Shown: positions 49,256 through 63,511 of the stretch, one piece after another
How the letters are laid out: the number at the start of each line of letters is the position of its first letter
Numbering within the stretch: the first letter of the stretch is position 1
NCBI GenBank assembly: GCA_026996605.1
Contig: JALWLE010000031.1
Coordinates: 1 to 64,000 of the forward strand
Length of the DNA: 64,000 bases
Reading direction: 5' to 3'
From: Flavobacteriales bacterium
Lineage (GTDB): Bacteria; Bacteroidota; Bacteroidia; Flavobacteriales; Flavobacteriaceae
Made by a program: the position numbers and the translations under genes
Notes under the pieces: generated by a model
What the model was told of the DNA's origin: nothing
What the model saw: the letters and a program-made list of their open reading frames with translations, nothing else
Database searches by the model: none

Positions 49256-51805
49256 TTATTTTTGCTCTTTGGCATAAGCATGTAACATTTTGTTCATTTT
49301 TTCAATATGTTCTTCGAAATTAAGTATTCCTGAGCTTGAAACTTTTTTCCAAAGTTCATCGTTACTCATTTCGCGGTGACATCCCATACATAATCCGGTT
49401 CTGTCCATACCTTCTCTTTCTTTTTTGTTCAATGCTCTGGATAATGGCCAGTGTGAACCTACTACTTGGGTTTGATTTCCTGTTTTCGGATCAACTATAG
49501 TTGACCAATCCCATTTCAGATTAGGTATCTTTTCAATTTGGATTTTATAATTTTTAGGAATGACTTTACCGGTTCTTTGATCAATCAAGTCTTCAACAAT
49601 ATCTTTGGGATATTTTGTTTGGAATACGCCACCGCTTATACCGTACCCCATTGTTTTAGGATTGTTATGGCAGCTTTCACAGCTACGAGCTTTACGTTGA
49701 GCAGAGTGTGGTTGTACCGGTGCCATATCAATTAGTAAGGGTTTCATGGATTGGTTAGCGGCTTGAGCTTCATCATCGGCATAGCCGATAACATTGTCTG
49801 CCACACGTTTACCATTTCTATCGATAACAGAATATACTATTTGACAGCCCGGCATCAATGGTGTGATACGTCCTTCACCGTTAACACCTAAGATAGGGTC
49901 TTCCCAGCGTAGGTATGAACGTCCTTCGCGTACTTTACCCGGGCTTTTTATTCCGGGTACACCGAGACGTGACTCGGCTGTTTGCCCGTGTGAATCGTGT
50001 TCAGAACCCGAGGCAATCCAGTCAATATTCATTTTAGGTTTTCCGTTTTTACCTTTACTGTAATCAACCTGAACGTGACAACCGTAACATTGCGGCACCC
50101 AAGACGCGTGACAAGTATAACATTCTAAATTTTCATTGTGTTTTTTGACTTTATCCATTGCCACTTCAGCATCGGGTGATTTCCAAGTACCGTCTTTTTT
50201 GATTTGTTTTAACACCGGGACTTCAAAGTCTAATCCGGTTGCTGAGTGAACAATTACTTTATTACCGTCTTTAACCACATTACCTAAAGCATTACCACGT
50301 GTTGATAGCAGATAACCGTCTTTTTTATCGTACAATGTGGCAAATTGAGCAGTTACTTGTTCAGCATCTTGTGCTAAACCACGTGGTGTATCAGGTAATT
50401 TTTTATTGAATTCTTCAGAATAACCGATAGGCAATTCCCAAGGGAATTTGTCTGTTGTGCCGTGACAGTCTTGACATTCAATTTCTACCTGAGCCAATGT
50501 TGTTCCGAATATGTTACCATCGCCGTGCATATCAATTGAGGTATGACAGTCTTGACAAAGCATACCGCCTTTCGGATTACCGTCTCTACTTTGATCTATT
50601 TGGTGGTGTAAGTCATCGGAGATAAACAAGTATTTTTTGGTATGTAATTTGGGTTGTATGGAGCCTTCATCAGTAAAAGGTGTTCCGTAAGGGAATTCCA
50701 TTAATCCTTGATAAGTTACCCCGATACGTTTGCCACGGTTGTGACATGAATTACAAGTTTCAACCGGAATACCGGAAAGTTCCATGCCATTGTGTTTGTA
50801 TTTTGATTTACGGGTACCCAGCATTCTATGACGCAACATATGTCCTTGTTCTCCTTTGTTAATTGTAGGGTCGTTACCTTCATAGTAACCTTCATTACCG
50901 TAAATAACATGACATGATGTACATCCCATACCGCGATAGTCACCACGTTTTTCACGTCCTCGTACGTTTACGTGACAACGTTGACATTCTTGACGTTGGT
51001 ATGTAAAACCGGCTAAGTGCGGATCTTTTTCAATTTCATCAACCGATGGAAGCGGTATTTGTTTTAATTCGTCAGGGAATTGTTTGGGATGTTCTTTCAT
51101 GATTTGTGCCATGTATTCTTTGTACTTTTTAGAACCGAATCTAGGCGTTTTACCATCCGGATCTTTTACATCATAATTTCCCCAAGGCACATTGTAATAT
51201 TGCACTTCTTTGACTCCCCATGTGTGCAAGTTTCCTTGAATTTTACCGGCTTCGGTACTCATTAAAGCTCTTGACATATTGTAAACATGATCTTTATGAC
51301 AAGCGGCACTTTGTCCACAGGTTTTGTCGGCAATCCAAAGAGAGCCGGGATCCGGATAGAAATCTTTCGGTCCATCAACTTTTTTCATGGTTTCGGGAAT
51401 CCCCTTGTGAGCAGCTTCATAAGTAGTAGCTTTAGGATTACCGCCGTGACAAACTACACAACCTTTAGGGTCACCGTGTTGTTTGCCAATACCGTAGATC
51501 ATTTGCATCATAGGAGTTTTCGGATCTCTAAAATCGTCAATTCCTTCATGGCAACTCAAACAACCCATTTTGTCAGCTTTTTCTTGAGTTGTTGTTTTGT
51601 ACTTAGCATCAATTTCTTTTTGTGCAGCCTTTTTATCAGGATGCTTGAAATTGGTTTCTTGTTTTTTGGTTTCAACCTTAGCGTATTCTTTAGCTACTTC
51701 TTTTTTATTGCTTTGTTGATCTTTACAAGATGTAAAAGTCAAAAAGGCAAAAATTATAAGTAGTACAGAACTGGCTAAAATCGGTTTTATAAACCTTTTT
51801 TCCAT
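49256..51805 (-). CDS. Dodecahaem c-type cytochrome lipoprotein
   Basis: An 849-residue lipoprotein (LTFTSC, lipidated Cys27). It has eleven CXXCH haem sites: CLSCH (82), CVVCH (116), CQRCH, CTSCH, CNSCH, CQDCH twice, CYTCH, CYGCH, CESCH and CMGCH. A twelfth likely site has unusual spacing, CGQSAACH (CX5CH, residues 163-170). I do not recognise a characterised family; it is not an NrfA, Hao or OmcA-type enzyme by visible motifs. The gene follows a porin gene by 21 bases on the same strand and sits next to ccsBA and the divergent nos cluster. Electron transfer across the envelope is inferred. Confidence 0.88.
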   Translation of the reverse strand: MEKRFIKPILASSVLLIIFAFLTFTSCKDQQSNKKEVAKEYAKVETKKQETNFKHPDKKAAQKEIDAKYKTTTQEKADKMGCLSCHEGIDDFRDPKTPMMQMIYGIGKQHGDPKGCVVCHGGNPKATTYEAAHKGIPETMKKVDGPKDFYPDPGSLWIADKTCGQSAACHKDHVYNMSRALMSTEAGKIQGNLHTWGVKEVQYYNVPWGNYDVKDPDGKTPRFGSKKYKEYMAQIMKEHPKQFPDELKQIPLPSVDEIEKDPHLAGFTYQRQECQRCHVNVRGREKRGDYRGMGCTSCHVIYGNEGYYEGNDPTINKGEQGHMLRHRMLGTRKSKYKHNGMELSGIPVETCNSCHNRGKRIGVTYQGLMEFPYGTPFTDEGSIQPKLHTKKYLFISDDLHHQIDQSRDGNPKGGMLCQDCHTSIDMHGDGNIFGTTLAQVEIECQDCHGTTDKFPWELPIGYSEEFNKKLPDTPRGLAQDAEQVTAQFATLYDKKDGYLLSTRGNALGNVVKDGNKVIVHSATGLDFEVPVLKQIKKDGTWKSPDAEVAMDKVKKHNENLECYTCHASWVPQCYGCHVQVDYSKGKNGKPKMNIDWIASGSEHDSHGQTAESRLGVPGIKSPGKVREGRSYLRWEDPILGVNGEGRITPLMPGCQIVYSVIDRNGKRVADNVIGYADDEAQAANQSMKPLLIDMAPVQPHSAQRKARSCESCHNNPKTMGYGISGGVFQTKYPKDIVEDLIDQRTGKVIPKNYKIQIEKIPNLKWDWSTIVDPKTGNQTQVVGSHWPLSRALNKKEREGMDRTGLCMGCHREMSNDELWKKVSSSGILNFEEHIEKMNKMLHAYAKEQK

Positions 51806-54773: not shown

Positions 54774-56972
54774 ATGAGAAAATCAAATTGGTTGACCCAA
54801 TCTGTTCTTGTAGTTTTGATATTCTTAATGGGAATATCAACACTAGCAGCCCAAGAAACAGTGGACGCTGTAATGAAAGCGCGGGGTCTGTCTGACAAAG
54901 ACAAGATTGCTGCTGTAAAAACCTTCATGCCTCGCGGAGGACGTGATGAGTACTTTGGTATTGTAGGTACCGGTAACTCGGGAACTATGATTGTATATGG
55001 TATCCCCAGTATGCGTATCTACAAATATGTAGGTGTTTTTACACCTGAACCTTGGCAAGGTTTCGGATTTGACGATGAAAGTTCACTTTTGTTGAAAAAA
55101 TCAAATCCTGACAACCGTATTCCTACTTATGGAGATATGCGTTTCCCGGCATTTTCCGAAACTAACGGAAAATATGATGGAAAATACGCTTTCTTCTCTG
55201 ATGGCGCTAATGCACGTATTGCACTTTTAGGTTTAGATGACTTTGAAACCAAGCAGGTTTTATCTAACACTATTTTAAAAAGTGTGTTTCCGCAAGCAGT
55301 GGTCACTCCTAATACTGAATATGTAATTCAATCCGGACAATTTCCCATGCCTTGGGATAGTAAAATAACTGATTTGGCAAAAGCTAAAAACGGTATCACT
55401 TTTTGGAAAGTTCACCGTATTGAAAAGGAAGGAGAACACAAAGGTCGTATCTTAAAAGAAGAATCATTTACCGTAGAAATGCCAGCTTATACATTAGATT
55501 ATAATGATGTTGGAAAAGCCGATTCTGACGGTTTAATGTTCGGTTTGGCTTTCAATGATGGTAAAGCTTATGTTTATGTATTAGATTATAAAAAAGTTTC
55601 CGGTTTGAAAAAAATTCCGACAACTTTTTCTCAGTTTGTTTCGTTAGATGAAGTAAAAAAAGCCGGTGCTTTAAGTATGATTGAGTTACCCGCCGGTGCC
55701 AGTACAGTAAAAGTTTCACCAGACGGAAAATATGTAGTGGTTGCTACCGATAATGTTTTAACATTAGATGTTGCAAAAATTAAATCTAATTTAGGAAAAG
55801 ATGTTAAAGCAGATGCTGTAATGCATAAATCAACTGCTATCGGTAAAGGTGTAGTAGATGTTACTTTTGATTATAGAAAAAATGTGGCTTATGCATCGGC
55901 TCACGATGATAAAAAAGTTGTCCGTTTCAATTATGTTGACGGTAAAAAAATGGATGAAGTGGCCTTAACTTATAAACCTTCTTATTTAATGACACCGCAA
56001 GGACTTTCTTCAGAACCGCACTCTAACTATTTGATTGCTGTTGATAAAGAAGCTTATTTACCTAACTTACCTAAAACAGGTCCGGTTCGTCCAAGTGTGC
56101 AACATTTAATTGATATTTCTGCTGATGACCAAATGGTTGAAACATATACCATGACTTTACCTCAAGCTAACGTATATGGTAATGTTGCTATTTTAAGAAC
56201 CACAATCAAACCGATTATTCGTTATGCTACCGGAACTAACTCACGTACCGGAGAACCTTCTCCTTTCCGTGCTGTTGCCGGACAAGAAAAAATAGAACGT
56301 CAAGGAAACCGTGTACACGTATTCGGTACGTTGATTCGTTCACATATTACTCCGGAAATTGTTGAGGTAAACGAAGGTGATATCGTTACTTTCCATTTAA
56401 CCAACTTAGAAAGAGCAGAGGACGAAACTCACGGATTTACCGTTGATACTTACGGAAGACATGGTTCTTTCGAACCCGGTAAAACAGCTTCATTAACTTT
56501 TGTGGCTGATAAACCCGGTGTATTCCCTTACTATTGTACAGAGTTCTGTTCCGCCTTACACTTGGAAATGGAAGGTATCTTATTGGTTAGACCTAAAGGA
56601 TATAAAGGAGGACCGGTTGGTTCAATTAGTGAAAAATTAACTAAGGAACAATTGGCTGAATACAAGAAAAACTATGAAGCTAAACTTAAAGTTATCAAAG
56701 AAACCGGTGATATTATTGGTGGTGTAGTTGATTACTTAAAGAAAAATCACTTCGAAAAATACCCTTACGTAAAAGCTTTGGTTGATGATGCTTTTGACCA
56801 ATTAAATAAAGCTAAACCTGCTGAAGAAAAATATAAAAAATATGCCAAAGAAGGCAAATGGAAAGATGCATTCTTGTGGGCTGAACAATATTGGCAGTAT
56901 CAAGTTAAAACCGCTGATGTCGGTTTAAGAGCTAAGAAATTGTTAGATGAAAAATTAGCTCAAGATAAATAA
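54774..56972 (+). CDS. NosZ-like CuA subunit lacking the CuZ site (NosZ-A)
   Basis: A 732-residue Sec-exported protein (signal ends near LAAQ) with NosZ architecture: a seven-bladed propeller (about 60-500) and a cupredoxin domain (about 505-605). All CuA ligands are present: His553, Cys588, Glu590 backbone position, Cys592, His596 and Met599 (YYCTEFCSALHLEM). All seven CuZ histidines are replaced. Alignment on conserved flanks gives Arg123 and Phe124 (GDMRFPAFSETNG), Phe172, Ser310, Asp362, Tyr404 and Tyr468. A 125-residue helical, lysine-rich tail without CXXCH follows. It cannot reduce N2O alone; a role as CuA electron-entry partner of the next gene is inferred. The start is set at the signal peptide; an ATG 54 bases upstream exists. 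Confidence 0.92.
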   Translation: MRKSNWLTQSVLVVLIFLMGISTLAAQETVDAVMKARGLSDKDKIAAVKTFMPRGGRDEYFGIVGTGNSGTMIVYGIPSMRIYKYVGVFTPEPWQGFGFDDESSLLLKKSNPDNRIPTYGDMRFPAFSETNGKYDGKYAFFSDGANARIALLGLDDFETKQVLSNTILKSVFPQAVVTPNTEYVIQSGQFPMPWDSKITDLAKAKNGITFWKVHRIEKEGEHKGRILKEESFTVEMPAYTLDYNDVGKADSDGLMFGLAFNDGKAYVYVLDYKKVSGLKKIPTTFSQFVSLDEVKKAGALSMIELPAGASTVKVSPDGKYVVVATDNVLTLDVAKIKSNLGKDVKADAVMHKSTAIGKGVVDVTFDYRKNVAYASAHDDKKVVRFNYVDGKKMDEVALTYKPSYLMTPQGLSSEPHSNYLIAVDKEAYLPNLPKTGPVRPSVQHLIDISADDQMVETYTMTLPQANVYGNVAILRTTIKPIIRYATGTNSRTGEPSPFRAVAGQEKIERQGNRVHVFGTLIRSHITPEIVEVNEGDIVTFHLTNLERAEDETHGFTVDTYGRHGSFEPGKTASLTFVADKPGVFPYYCTEFCSALHLEMEGILLVRPKGYKGGPVGSISEKLTKEQLAEYKKNYEAKLKVIKETGDIIGGVVDYLKKNHFEKYPYVKALVDDAFDQLNKAKPAEEKYKKYAKEGKWKDAFLWAEQYWQYQVKTADVGLRAKKLLDEKLAQDK

Positions 56973-57008
56973 TATATAATGTATAAAAAATCTAAATTGA
57001 ATTGGATT

Positions 57009-59423
57009 ATGAAAAATATAAAAAATAAATCTTGGTTGCGTATCTTTAGTGCAGCCATGTCCTTAATGCTTGTTGCTTTGTTTGCCATCAGTTGTGGCGG
57101 TAACGGCGAAAAAGGTAAAAAAGGCGGTGCCACCGGTGATATAGGTGCGCCGAGAGGAAAAGAGTCTTTCCAAGACATTGTTAAACGAAGAGGTTTAAAC
57201 GAAGATGATGTTTTAGCTGCTGTTAAAACATATACACCGGATAATGTAAAAGATGAAGCAATAACTGCTAATTCAGGAGGACAAGAAGGTAACTTACCTG
57301 CATATGTTGTACCTTCTATGCGTTTGGTAAAATATGTCCCTATCAATACCCGTCAACCTTATGCAGGTTACGGTTATTCCGAAGAAACCTTTGACTTATT
57401 GAAAAAAGGTTTTATTGACGGAACTGAAATTCTATGGGGAGATACACACCATCCGGGATTCTCTGAAACTGATGGTGATTATAATGGTAAATGGCTTGCT
57501 ATCAATGATAAAGCTAACCCTAGAGTATATGTGGTTGATTTAAGAGACTGGTCAGTTAAGCAAGTAGTACAAAACCCTATTTTCCGTTCTGACCATGGTG
57601 GTTGTTTCTTTACACCTAATTCTGAGTATTTTATGGAGGCAGCTCAGTATCCGGCTCCGTTTGATAGAAAGTATTATCCGCTTACCGAAGAAAACTATAA
57701 AAAATATTGGAGAGGTGGTTTGACCTATTGGAAATTTGATAATGATAAAGGTAAAGTGATTGAAAAAGAGTCGTTTACTTTTGAATTTCCGCCATATACT
57801 CAAGATTTATCAGATGCCGGAAAAGCCAAATCTTATGGTTGGGGTTTCACTAACTCTTTCTGTTCAGAAGTTTATTTCGGAGGTATCATGCAAGGTCGTC
57901 CGCCGTTTGAAGCCGGTTGTTCTTCAAGAGACGTAGATTATTTACACGTAACCAATTGGAAAAAAGCCGAAGAGTTAATTAAAGCCGGAAAAATAGGTAA
58001 GAAAATAGTAAATGGAATGCGTGTAATTACCATTCCGGAGTCTATCAAATACGGTTTGTTATACTTAATTCCTGAACCTAAATCACCCCATGGTGTTGAT
58101 GTGAACCCTAGTGGAGAATACATTATCGTTGCCGGTAAGTTAGATTCTCATGCGTGGGTTTATAGCTTTGATAAAATTATGAATGCCATCAAAAACAAAA
58201 AATTTGAAGGTAAAGATGATTATGGCATTCCTATTATCAAATTAGAAGATGCTTTACACGGTTCATTGGAGGTTGGTTTAGGACCTCTTCACAACCAATA
58301 TGATAGTAGAGACGGCGTAGTTTATACTTCAATTTATGTTGATTCGCGTGTTACCAAGTGGGACTACAAAAACTTAAAAGTTTTAGATTTTGTACCGTCA
58401 CATTACAATATCGGTCACTTGGTGTCTTATCACGGTGATACTAAACACCCGAAAGGAAAATACTTGGTTGCTTTGAATAAATTATCTATTGACCGTTTCA
58501 ATCCTGTGGGTCCTTTGCATCCGCAGAACCACCAGTTGATTGATATTGCCGCTGAGCATCCTAAGTTAATTTATGATATGCCGTTACCTATGGGTGAGCC
58601 ACACTATACAGCCATGATTGACCGTACGGTTTATGAGGCTAACAATATGGAAGTTTATCCTGTAGGAACAAATATTGTAACAATGGAAAAATCAGCATAT
58701 GCTACAGAAGCCGGTGCTGAAAAAGTTGAAACAAAAGGTAATACTGTTGAAGTATTCGGTACTATTAAAGATGGTAAAGTAACCCCTGCTGATATCAATG
58801 TTAAACAAGGACAAGATGTAGTATTGCACTTAACTAACCTTGGACAAACACCTATGGATCATTATGTATATGAGATAATCTCTTATGACAAAATGTATCC
58901 TTATGCTCCGGGTGAAACTGCTACTATCAAATTTAATGCTGAAAAAGCCGGTGTTTATCCTATAGTTGTTGATGCACAAAACAGTCCTGCTAAACGTCAG
59001 TTAGTTGGACACTTAACCGTAACATTTGACCAAGATGCTGAGAACAAACGTGTATTAGCTTATACTAAACGTATCAATTGGGATAACAAGGTACAAGCCT
59101 TTAAGCCTTCAGCTATTGAGTTGAAAAATATGTTGCCGGGTGAAATTGAATTCTTGAACTATGGTTGTAACGCTTGTCATAAATTTGGAGAGCCGTTTAA
59201 CGGTCCCGACTTGTTAATGATTCACAAGCGTCGTGATGACAAATGGTTAAGAGAATGGATATTAGATCCTGAATCTAAATACAAAGATCCGGATATTGAA
59301 GCTTTACGTCAACAGTTCAAATTGGCTATGCCTAATCAACATGTTGATCCTAAAGATGTTGACAAGTTGATTGAGTATATGAAAGCTAAATCGGAACAAA
59401 TCGTTAAAGAGATGTCAAAATAA
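57009..59423 (+). CDS. NosZ-like CuZ subunit lacking CuA, with C-terminal cytochrome c (NosZ-B)
   Basis: An 804-residue lipoprotein-like protein (FAISC, Cys29). All seven CuZ ligands are present: His147 and His148 (DTHHPGFSETDG), His196 (SDHGGC), His361 (KSPHGVDV), His428 (GPLHNQYD), His470 (YNIGHLV) and His532 (GEPHYTAM). The cupredoxin domain (about 575-675) is kept, but CuA is gone: the positions of Cys, Cys, His and Met are Val654, Asn658, Lys662 and Leu665; only His618 remains. A cytochrome c domain follows with CNACH (720-724) and probable ligand Met774. A cytochrome tail also occurs on Wolinella NosZ. It lies 36 bases after NosZ-A. The start could also be 30 bases upstream. Confidence 0.94.
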   Translation: MKNIKNKSWLRIFSAAMSLMLVALFAISCGGNGEKGKKGGATGDIGAPRGKESFQDIVKRRGLNEDDVLAAVKTYTPDNVKDEAITANSGGQEGNLPAYVVPSMRLVKYVPINTRQPYAGYGYSEETFDLLKKGFIDGTEILWGDTHHPGFSETDGDYNGKWLAINDKANPRVYVVDLRDWSVKQVVQNPIFRSDHGGCFFTPNSEYFMEAAQYPAPFDRKYYPLTEENYKKYWRGGLTYWKFDNDKGKVIEKESFTFEFPPYTQDLSDAGKAKSYGWGFTNSFCSEVYFGGIMQGRPPFEAGCSSRDVDYLHVTNWKKAEELIKAGKIGKKIVNGMRVITIPESIKYGLLYLIPEPKSPHGVDVNPSGEYIIVAGKLDSHAWVYSFDKIMNAIKNKKFEGKDDYGIPIIKLEDALHGSLEVGLGPLHNQYDSRDGVVYTSIYVDSRVTKWDYKNLKVLDFVPSHYNIGHLVSYHGDTKHPKGKYLVALNKLSIDRFNPVGPLHPQNHQLIDIAAEHPKLIYDMPLPMGEPHYTAMIDRTVYEANNMEVYPVGTNIVTMEKSAYATEAGAEKVETKGNTVEVFGTIKDGKVTPADINVKQGQDVVLHLTNLGQTPMDHYVYEIISYDKMYPYAPGETATIKFNAEKAGVYPIVVDAQNSPAKRQLVGHLTVTFDQDAENKRVLAYTKRINWDNKVQAFKPSAIELKNMLPGEIEFLNYGCNACHKFGEPFNGPDLLMIHKRRDDKWLREWILDPESKYKDPDIEALRQQFKLAMPNQHVDPKDVDKLIEYMKAKSEQIVKEMSK

Positions 59424-59556: not shown

Positions 59557-60315
59557 ATGAATGACAAGGCAAAAAAATTTAAATTATTATATATGGTTTT
59601 CGGTCTTTTGGGAACCGGCTTAATCATAGCAACCTATTTCCTACCTATATGGTGGGTAGCGTTGGAAAGCATACAATATCCCAAAGCCATGTACCCCAAA
59701 GGTATTCGTATTGAATTTAAGTACGATGGGGTTTATAACGGTTGTAAAGGCGTGCGCGAACGCGAAGAACTAGCAATGGATGCCGGAGCAGACTGTTTGA
59801 TAGAAATGAATAAAATCAATCACTTTATCGGTATGTATCCCATAGTACAAGGAGTTAATGATGTTGACGAACTGGGTAACCATGTCAGATATCCTGTTTA
59901 CGCCGGTGATAGCATACCTGATGATAAAATTCCCGGTGCTTTAAAAACGCTTGATAGTATTATGCGTAATGCCCATATTGCTTTTGTTTTATTAGGGCTT
60001 TTAGGACTGGCATTTGTTTTTGTACAAAAGAAAAAACTAACTTGGGCAGCTATTCTAACGGCATTAGCACCTATTTATTTCTTGTTAATTTATGTTTACT
60101 ATCTTTATTGGTATGGACACCATTTAGGTTTACACGGTGGAGGTGCCTTTAACGGTATTAAACCTTTTATGCCTACCGTATTTGGTGAAGGTAAAGTGGC
60201 ACAGTTTACAACCATGTCTTATCCTTATACCGGATTTTTTGTAGGATTAGCCGGTATGGTTTTACTATTTTTGGCTATTAATTTTAAAAATAAATATCTA
60301 AAATCCGTCAAATAA
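59557..60315 (+). CDS. nosB: Nitrous oxide reductase cluster membrane protein NosB
   Basis: A 252-residue membrane protein with one N-terminal helix, a periplasmic loop (about residues 32-130) with conserved cysteines in VYNGCKG and GADCLIEMNKINHFIGM, and three to four C-terminal helices including YLYWYGHHLGLHGGGAF, which is histidine-rich at the membrane face. This matches NosB of clade II clusters, thought to take part in electron transfer or N2O reductase maturation. Its presence identifies the cluster as clade II (Wolinella/Bacteroidota type). Confidence 0.9.
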   Translation: MNDKAKKFKLLYMVFGLLGTGLIIATYFLPIWWVALESIQYPKAMYPKGIRIEFKYDGVYNGCKGVREREELAMDAGADCLIEMNKINHFIGMYPIVQGVNDVDELGNHVRYPVYAGDSIPDDKIPGALKTLDSIMRNAHIAFVLLGLLGLAFVFVQKKKLTWAAILTALAPIYFLLIYVYYLYWYGHHLGLHGGGAFNGIKPFMPTVFGEGKVAQFTTMSYPYTGFFVGLAGMVLLFLAINFKNKYLKSVK

Positions 60316-60405: not shown

Positions 60406-61746
60406 ATGTCAAAATATTTCTTCTATATATTATTTTTTTTACTGACTTTCAGTTATGCACAGGTTGATAAATCATATCACCCCGGTTTAGCAACTGCTGT
60501 TACAGGTTCAACAGATAGAACAAACATGCGCAATTTGCAACCGTTAATTGATGCACTGAACCCCGGTGACACCTTACTTTTAGACCCCGGATTTTATTAT
60601 GGGCCTGCTTATGTTAAAACACCAAACGTTACTATAGACGGACAAGGTAGAGCTACTGTTTCCGGGCGTAATCTTAAATCGGTTTTATATATTGAAGCCG
60701 ATAATGTAACTATTAAAAATTTGCATTTAATAGAATCCGGAGACTCGCCGGATAGAATTGATTGTGCCATAAAAATTAGTAAATCAAAGAATTTTATGGT
60801 TATCAATAACAAAATTGAAGAAACTTTATTTGGTATAGATGTTTTTTGGTCAGAAGGAGGACTGATAAAGTACAATGATATTACTTCCATATCACGTAAA
60901 CCTAAGGGGTTAAAAGGAGACGCAATCCGTTTTTGGTATTCCAAACACAATTTGGTACAAGAAAACATTTGGCACCAAGTCCGTGATATGGTGGTTTGGT
61001 ATTCATCGGACAATCAATTTATCGGCAATCGCGGGATTGATAACCGCTATAGTATTCATTTTATGTATTCGCACAATAATCAGATTTCGCATAATCATTT
61101 TTCATCATCATCTGTGGGTATATTCTTGATGTATAGCGAAAAAACCATTATGAATAATAATTTGATTGAAGGTTCACAAGGCGTTACCGGTATGTGTTTG
61201 GGCATGAAGGAAACATCGTCCAATCAAATTATCGATAACAAATTTATTTATTCTGCAAGGGGTATATATATTGATGTATCGCCTTTCGTACCTTGGAAAA
61301 CCAATACCATATCCGGTAATGAAATTGCATTTTGTAACACCGGTATCGAATTTTTAAAAGATCAGGAAGGAAATTTGTTTAGTGATAACATGTTTCATGA
61401 CAATTTAACGCAGGTTTTTATACAAGGTGGCGGTACTGCCAACCGTAATAAATGGATAAATAACTATTGGGGTGATTATGCCGGATTTGATAAAGACGGT
61501 GATAATATCGGTGATTTTCCTTATCGTATCTATGAATATCATGCCCGTTTGTGGCGGTTTAACCCAAATGTCAAGTTTTTTTACGGAGCACCTATTTTGT
61601 CTATTTTAGATTATTTAGAAAAATTAGCACCTTTTTCAAAACCGCAATTTGTTTTGAAAGATCCCAAACCTATTTTTAGTTTGGAAGAATTTAAAAAGAA
61701 GCGACATTTTGAATTAAAGATGGATACAAAAATTAAAAAAAAGTAA
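60406..61746 (+). CDS. nosD: Copper-site maturation protein NosD
   Basis: A 446-residue periplasmic protein with a signal peptide (MSKYFFYILFFLLTFSYAQ) and a right-handed parallel beta-helix made of PbH1 repeats (about 60-360). The conserved INNYWGDYAGFDKDGDN and AHARLWRF-like C-terminal NosD motif are present. NosD works with NosF and NosY to assemble the CuZ cluster of NosZ. The start is placed at the signal peptide; a TTG 66 bases upstream would add an atypical prefix. The next gene starts one base after the stop. Confidence 0.93.
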   Translation: MSKYFFYILFFLLTFSYAQVDKSYHPGLATAVTGSTDRTNMRNLQPLIDALNPGDTLLLDPGFYYGPAYVKTPNVTIDGQGRATVSGRNLKSVLYIEADNVTIKNLHLIESGDSPDRIDCAIKISKSKNFMVINNKIEETLFGIDVFWSEGGLIKYNDITSISRKPKGLKGDAIRFWYSKHNLVQENIWHQVRDMVVWYSSDNQFIGNRGIDNRYSIHFMYSHNNQISHNHFSSSSVGIFLMYSEKTIMNNNLIEGSQGVTGMCLGMKETSSNQIIDNKFIYSARGIYIDVSPFVPWKTNTISGNEIAFCNTGIEFLKDQEGNLFSDNMFHDNLTQVFIQGGGTANRNKWINNYWGDYAGFDKDGDNIGDFPYRIYEYHARLWRFNPNVKFFYGAPILSILDYLEKLAPFSKPQFVLKDPKPIFSLEEFKKKRHFELKMDTKIKKK

Positions 61747-61747
61747 G

Positions 61748-62437
61748 ATGACCAAAACCAAGCAAATGCTTAAGATGCAACAGCAACTCAACGATGCTAC
61801 AGGCGGTATAGGCTGGGAATACGGTTATACCAATAAAGGTAAACGCATTGATTGGAAGCGTTGTATTTATTTAGAAGCAGCAGAATTGGTTGATTCTTAC
61901 CCGTGGAAACATTGGAAAAATATTGATGCTACACCGGACTATGACAACATCAAAATTGAAATAGTTGACATTTGGCATTTTGTGATGTCCGAAGCTTTGC
62001 GTGATTATAAAATAAATAAAAAAGGAGATGTTGATCAACTGGCATTTGATATAACGAAAGTTGTTAATTATCAAATATTTACAAATAACGTCAAACCGCT
62101 TGAAGCGGATATTTATAAGCAAATAGCATGGGTTGAAAGTTTTATGAAAACGCTGTTTACAAGCGACGATATTTTAATGCTCATCGATGCATTTTTTAAT
62201 ATGGCTTATAAATTACAAGTCAATTTAGATATTTTGTATCGTTTATATATTGGAAAAAATATTTTGAATAAATTTAGGCAAGATCACGGTTACAAAGAAG
62301 GGAAATATGTTAAAGAGTGGAATGGCGTAGAAGATAACGTTGTGATGCAAGATGTTTTAGAAAAACAACCGGATGTAACACCGATAGAACTGTATGAAGC
62401 ATTGGAGCGTGTATATGCAGAAGTCGAAGGTGTCTAG
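61748..62437 (+). CDS. Dimeric all-alpha dUTPase
   Basis: A 229-residue enzyme of the dimeric dUTPase/MazG-like superfamily, which hydrolyses dUTP and dUDP to dUMP. Motifs fit the Campylobacter type: KMQQQLNDATGGIGWEYGYT, CIYLEAAELVDSYPWKHWK, IEIVDIWHF with metal-binding acids, and YIGKNILNKFRQDHGYKEG. It overlaps no other gene but starts one base after the nosD stop, placing it inside the nos operon. That location is unusual, since it has no known role in N2O respiration. Transfer together with the cluster is one explanation. Confidence 0.9.
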   Translation: MTKTKQMLKMQQQLNDATGGIGWEYGYTNKGKRIDWKRCIYLEAAELVDSYPWKHWKNIDATPDYDNIKIEIVDIWHFVMSEALRDYKINKKGDVDQLAFDITKVVNYQIFTNNVKPLEADIYKQIAWVESFMKTLFTSDDILMLIDAFFNMAYKLQVNLDILYRLYIGKNILNKFRQDHGYKEGKYVKEWNGVEDNVVMQDVLEKQPDVTPIELYEALERVYAEVEGV

Positions 62438-62680: not shown

Positions 62681-63511
62681 ATGGCACCAAATAACACTAA
62701 AATCAACAGAAGGCAATTCTTAAAAGCAAGTGCATCGGCAGTAGTGTCGTTGGCAGTTGTAGGAAGTGCCGCCTACTACTTTAAAGACAAAAGTAGTTTA
62801 AGAGAGAAAGGCTTTTTGAGACCACCCGGCTCAAGAGCCGAAAAAGATTTTTTATTTTCTTGTATCAAGTGTGGTCTATGTGTCCAAATTTGTCCTGTTC
62901 ATGCGATTAAATTGGCAGATTGGAATGACGGACTTTCTTATGGTACACCATTTATTGATCCTAATGTACAAGCTTGTGATTTTTCGTGTGACGCCATTCA
63001 ATGTGCAGAAACCTGTCCTACAGCAGCCATTGATTTTCAGATATTTAAACATGCCGGTGACGAAGCTGTTGCGCCTTTGTATAAAAAATATCCGGATGGT
63101 AGATTCCCAAAAGGAATCAATCCTTTTGAAGTACAAATTATTGCCATGAAAAGTGCCGATAAAATCGGTGAAGCCGAAATACCTAATCCAAATCAATGTT
63201 TGGCATATCATGGTCATGGGTATAAAGGTACTTTGGGACATGGTAATAAAGGTATGTTAAGACCACCGGGTAAAAGTGAACGAATTAAAATTGAAGAAAC
63301 ACAAGTCAATAGAGAAATTTGTGACTTATGTGTGATTTATTGTCCTTTAGGAGATGAAGCCATTGTACTTGACAAAGTAGAAGACGGTAAATTCATACCT
63401 AAAATTAAAGATGGTTGTGTCGGTTGTGGCGTTTGCCAAATGGTTTGTCCGACCAATCCGGTGGCTATTGTTGTTAAACCTGTGGATAAAAAACCGCAGT
63501 TTAATGTTTAA
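62681..63511 (+). CDS. nosG: Ferredoxin-type protein NosG (NapG-like)
   Basis: A 276-residue periplasmic iron-sulfur protein with a twin-arginine signal (NRRQFLKASASAVV, residues 9-22). It has four [4Fe-4S] binding motifs: CIKCGLCVQICP, CDFSCDAIQCAETCP, CDLCVIYCP and CVGCGVCQMVCP. In clade II nos clusters NosG and NosH are proposed to pass quinol electrons through cytochromes to NosZ. It precedes nosH by 18 bases. Confidence 0.93.
   Translation: MAPNNTKINRRQFLKASASAVVSLAVVGSAAYYFKDKSSLREKGFLRPPGSRAEKDFLFSCIKCGLCVQICPVHAIKLADWNDGLSYGTPFIDPNVQACDFSCDAIQCAETCPTAAIDFQIFKHAGDEAVAPLYKKYPDGRFPKGINPFEVQIIAMKSADKIGEAEIPNPNQCLAYHGHGYKGTLGHGNKGMLRPPGKSERIKIEETQVNREICDLCVIYCPLGDEAIVLDKVEDGKFIPKIKDGCVGCGVCQMVCPTNPVAIVVKPVDKKPQFNV

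Follow-up and report, generated by a model that had tools for sequence, protein, structure and literature searches.

The stretch of DNA analysed here (the window, 64,000 nucleotides) carries two adjacent genes for NosZ-like proteins on its forward strand, separated by 36 nt and each an intact open reading frame. The first (54774..56972) encodes NosZ-A, a CuA-only NosZ homologue of 732 aa, which begins with a signal-like N-terminal helix and continues with a propeller domain without CuZ (aa 50-505, 54921..56288), where a deletion after about aa 256 has removed the Ca2+ clamp loop, a CuA cupredoxin domain (aa 506-607, 56289..56594), and a C-terminal helical tail (56595..56969) homologous to that of the long single-chain NosZ from Alphaproteobacteria and Myxococcota. 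The second (57009..59423) encodes NosZ-B, a CuZ-only NosZ homologue of 804 aa fused to cytochrome c, in which a lipoprotein-like N-terminus is followed by a propeller domain (aa 72-571, 57222..58721) with its Ca2+ clamp loop (aa 281-308, 57849..57932), a cupredoxin domain without CuA (aa 572-673, 58722..59027), and a C-terminal cytochrome c domain with one CxxCH, the haem c motif CNACH (aa 720-724, 59166..59180). This cytochrome domain was absent from the sequence-only reading that preceded our analysis.

Directly 3' of NosZ-B, also on the forward strand, lies the gene of a membrane protein of about 250 aa (59557..60315), without any Pfam or NCBIfam match, which is conserved and adjoins nosZ in split and single-chain operons alike. 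It is followed on the same strand by nosD (60406..61746; TIGR04247, 361 bits) and nosG (62681..63511), which encodes a NapG/MauM-type ferredoxin. Of the nos maturation genes, nosD and nosG are thus in the window, and nosH, nosF, nosL, and nosY come next in a locus of the same genus and in most relatives. A dUTPase gene (61748-62437) separates nosD from nosG, both here and in close relatives (L033, L066-L068, L079), and more distant A/B carriers have the nos operon without it. Upstream, on the opposite strand, lies a gene (49256-51805) for a multihaem cytochrome c of 849 aa with distant similarity to ExtM, accompanied by a porin; a role in extracellular electron transfer is possible, and the multihaem cytochrome was not seen near nos in relatives.

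Alignment to single-chain NosZ revealed how the copper ligands are divided. NosZ-A has no His in any of the seven CuZ columns (R123, F124, F172, S310, D362, Y404, and Y468 instead) and keeps all five CuA ligands (H553, C588, C592, H596, and M599). NosZ-B holds all seven CuZ ligands (H147, H148, H196, H361, H428, H470, and H532) and none of the five CuA ligands (Y619 at the His position, V654, N658, K662, and L665). The one-chain set of seven CuZ His and five CuA side-chain ligands, which was complete in 71 of the 71 single-chain NosZ collected for reference, is therefore found in neither protein and is complete only in the two jointly. All 23 residue identities given in the sequence-only reading were right, and the alignment confirmed their placement in the ligand columns. 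Its description of the losses as point-wise needs correction: the changes are not only point-wise, since A is without the Ca2+ clamp loop and the C-terminus of B is a cytochrome c domain.

Profile scores and structural models relate both proteins to NosZ. NosZ-B scored 665 bits against TIGR04246 (clade II NosZ), above the curated cut-off of 625, and NosZ-A scored 403 bits, below it, though the match spans the whole length; surveys may consequently score such a genome as having one odd NosZ, or two. Neither protein scores as a member of the clade III lactonase-type NosZ family (L-NosZ, NF052460; cut-off 700, with 70 bits for A and 104 for B), and A falls below the copper nitrite reductase cut-off (TIGR02376; cut-off 296, with 24 bits for its cupredoxin domain only). 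In AlphaFold2 single-chain models (mean pLDDT 81 for A and 78 for B), each protein is predicted to have the seven-bladed propeller plus cupredoxin fold, and the best PDB matches of both models were all NosZ, with TM scores by target of 0.73-0.78 for A and 0.83-0.87 for B. The segment of B that links its haem domain (around aa 690-730) was modelled with low confidence. The cytochrome domains of B proteins share up to 39% identity with the cytochrome whose gene adjoins canonical nosZ in the family. In L080, L082, L085, L105, L124, and L142, the B proteins are about 900 aa long and possess two cytochrome c domains, which suggests that their haem chain is longer.

We scanned 84,980 species genomes with the A proteins of two species, by two exact heptapeptides, and obtained 80 loci: 68 were A-type, defined as having at most one His in the seven CuZ columns, and 12 were single-chain NosZ with all ligands. 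Because two exact heptapeptides were required, the count of A-type loci is a lower bound. A-type loci occur in Bacteroidota, Ignavibacteriota/Chlorobiota, and Cloacimonadota, in hosts named as Flavobacteriales, Saprospiraceae, Bacteroidales, Chlorobiota/Melioribacteraceae, and Ca. Cloacimonetes, and every A/B genome found is a metagenome-assembled genome (MAG). This wide spread had not been noted in the sequence-only reading. A single CuZ His is kept in 13 of the 68 A-type proteins and never more than one, and the CuA ligands are 5/5 in all 63 of these that extend to that region. Every B-type protein readable to that point has seven of seven CuZ His, lacks all CuA ligands, and carries one or two haem motifs where its sequence is not truncated. 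The replacements are themselves fixed: Asp (61/61), Tyr (61/61), and Arg (58/61) in CuZ columns of A, and Tyr for the first CuA His of B (53/53). In the former CuZ pocket of A, the new residues Arg, Asp, Tyr, and Asn are fixed in nearly all members, a pattern that suggests a remodelled pocket and not drift. The ligand pattern recurs in 68 homologues of A-type and 53 of B-type, the latter fully readable, which indicates that it is due neither to chance nor to assembly error, and an assembly or frameshift artefact was ruled out by the presence of the same pair in dozens of independent MAGs.

The two genes also travel together. The gene after A is a NosZ open reading frame in 61 of the 68 loci, with an open-frame gap of -60 to +39 nt, and the other seven lie at contig ends; far from never co-occurring, A and B are thus neighbours at every locus where the contig allows. 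The operon order A-B-membrane protein-nosD-nosG-nosH-nosF-nosL-nosY is kept across phyla, and in the nearest single-chain relatives a single nosZ fills the A-B slot of the same operon. Whole-genome searches of 50 A-carrying genomes found both A and B in 50 of 50 and a canonical NosZ in three, so that the pair is the sole NosZ in 47. Of the 13 genomes in the genus of the window, 11 contain the pair, and canonical NosZ is absent from all 13; the wider family as a rule has a canonical single-chain NosZ. The three genomes that have canonical nosZ beside A/B are those of L174 (G596), L144 (G597), and L145 (G602), and they should be useful for asking whether the enzyme types divide conditions between them; G596 contains two B-type genes, on different contigs.

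A canonical NosZ elsewhere in the genome was one of the findings that the sequence-only reading named as counting against it, and the host, like those 47 genomes, has no third or canonical NosZ elsewhere in its genome (2.38 Mb, 149 contigs, 97% complete). The host genome contains norCB and a cbb3-type oxidase, both named from their sequence, and neither nirK nor nirS, and the host can thus probably make N2O from NO. The A/B pair is its only candidate N2O reductase.

In the phylogenetic tree, A forms one clade and B another, each with full support. The retained halves are nearest to the long-tailed single-chain NosZ of Pseudomonadota and Myxococcota, with identities of at most 75% for the A cupredoxin and at most 59% for the B propeller; an origin from ordinary Flavobacteriaceae NosZ was ruled out, since both proteins are nearer to these long-tailed enzymes. 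The helical tail of the long-tailed relatives is kept in A, and a cytochrome occupies that place in B. The AU test did not reject a tree in which A and B were held as one clade (p 0.62, with a slightly better likelihood), so A and B may be direct sister duplicates, but both stems are long.

Comparison with close relatives gave dN/dS values of 0.07-0.12 for A, 0.04-0.07 for B, and 0.01-0.04 for the cupredoxin domain of A; A and B are both under purifying selection. Among 39 representatives, mean identity was 91% in the cupredoxin and 66% in the propeller of A, and 76% in the propeller and 66% in the cupredoxin of B, so that each protein is conserved where its centre is kept and looser where its centre is lost. 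The distance matrices of A and B are correlated (r = 0.88, with 0 of 5000 permutations as high), as expected for co-inheritance, and shared species history contributes to this value. The loss of one catalytic centre from each protein could in principle reflect complementary loss by chance, during pseudogenisation after a duplication, which would leave two non-functional relics. We regard this as extremely improbable given the low dN/dS of both proteins, their deep conservation across several phyla, the single origin of each clade, and the fixed replacement residues; pseudogenes as such are ruled out by the dN/dS values. Judged from these patterns, the division of NosZ is to be read as functional and not as decay.

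In solved NosZ, the two chains of the homodimer lie head-to-tail, and each active site combines CuA from one chain with CuZ from the other (PMC11573801). The conduit between them involves F621 of the CuA chain, which faces E492 and K454 of the CuZ chain (P. stutzeri numbering), and a Ca2+-bound loop of the propeller clamps the cupredoxin domain of the partner chain (PMC11573801). We found that these residues are divided between A and B in the same way as the ligands. The equivalent of Phe621 (F591 in the window) is present in A in 39 of 39 representatives and lost in B, and the equivalent of Glu492 (E530 in the window, where K491 corresponds to K454) is Glu in B in 39/39 and Asn in A in 39/39. 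The Glu and Asp ligands of Ca2+ (E287 and D308) are kept in B in 39/39, whereas A has a deletion at the Glu column in 39/39 and has lost the Asp in 37/39. Furthermore, replacement of CuZ His residues abolished metalation in six of seven cases (PMC11573801), so A should hold no CuZ. The only interface predicted to be complete is the one that joins CuA of A to CuZ of B. At the sequence level, these divided residues are the strongest evidence that A and B form a heteromer and not two homodimers. Separate homodimers, with A as a CuA electron carrier (e.g., feeding an oxidase) and B as a degraded or differently used NosZ, would agree with the resemblance of the CuA domain of A to cytochrome oxidase subunit II as well. 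We nevertheless consider them very unlikely, as the residues of one canonical interface are shared out between A and B, A never occurs without B where the contig allows, and the pair sits in a nos operon.

Taken together, domain conservation, the split of the trans-interface residues, purifying selection, and co-occurrence support the A-B heteromer with one CuA/CuZ pair that the sequence-only reading had proposed, and the two checks that could have refuted it, for a third NosZ and for separate occurrence of A and B, did not do so. A and B are thus very probably the subunits of one heteromeric nitrous oxide reductase of clade II, each pair having a single productive CuA/CuZ site, and it appears that only A and B together could make a working enzyme. 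From the ligand division, co-occurrence, selection, and fold that we observed, we infer the following complex, metal content, electron path, and activity. The propeller of NosZ-B would hold the catalytic CuZ cluster, and the cupredoxin domain of NosZ-A would supply CuA, docked head-to-tail on the B propeller and gripped by the Ca2+ loop of B. Electrons would pass from CuA of A via Phe591 (A) and Glu530-Lys491 (B) to CuZ of B, where N2O would be reduced. The haem c fused to B through a flexible linker would be a likely donor to CuA of A. The canonical arrangement would tether this haem to the dead cupredoxin domain of B, away from CuA of A, so that haem-to-CuA transfer would need a swinging linker or another geometry. 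The reciprocal interface, formed by the A propeller and the B cupredoxin, would be structural only, which would leave one active site per A:B pair instead of two.

The main rival to this heteromer is direct entry of electrons from haem into CuZ: B would be a stand-alone N2O reductase in which haem c replaces CuA as the direct donor, and A would be a scaffold or maturation factor. The one or two haem c motifs of B, in a domain that shares homology with the cytochrome whose gene precedes canonical nosZ, fit such a role, as does the fact that B alone scores above the NosZ cut-off. However, the CuA domain of A is more conserved than any other part of the pair (91% identity, with dN/dS about 0.01-0.04), A keeps the Phe that reaches over to the CuZ of its partner, and B has retained a metal-free cupredoxin fold, as for a part of a dimer; a stand-alone B is therefore unlikely, less so than separate homodimers. 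We think it probable that the pair constitutes an asymmetric heteromer with a single site, and a self-contained haem c-CuA-CuZ chain over two gene products, which serves as the sole N2O reductase of uncultured bacteria in several phyla.

NosZ is described as the one enzyme known to act as a biological sink for the greenhouse gas N2O, and in many MAGs the pair appears to be the only N2O reductase. NosZ is regarded as a homodimer whose two active sites are identical, and the natural split offers a clean test of site cooperation in it, because each pair can have one site only. In a divided enzyme, CuA and CuZ can moreover be mutated, loaded, and followed by spectroscopy separately.

The pair shares with the canonical clade II (Sec-type) NosZ homodimer the fold, the CuZ His (in B), the CuA ligands (in A), and the operon nosZ-D-G-H-F-L-Y; unlike that enzyme, which has both centres in each chain and two sites per homodimer, it has its centres on different gene products. 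The cNosZ of Wolinella succinogenes is generally known as a NosZ with a C-terminal haem c and with CuA and CuZ in the same chain; B shares the C-terminal cytochrome c but is without CuA and would depend on a partner. With clade III lactonase-type NosZ, A and B have distant NosZ homology, both far below its cut-off of 700. A literature search, the scope of which left out most subscription papers and preprints, found no description of such an A/B pair and one published case of NosZ lacking CuA or CuZ, split or paralogous, namely that of DPANN archaea. These archaea have CuA-only NosZ-like proteins that lie between Cox2 and NosZ in the tree of that study, which left their function open, and in two DPANN MAGs a neighbouring protein with five conserved His clusters with clade II NosZ (PMC10936187). 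A CuA motif without CuZ is thus common to these proteins and NosZ-A, but in the present pair both partners have full NosZ folds and complete sites, and they are accompanied by a whole nos operon.
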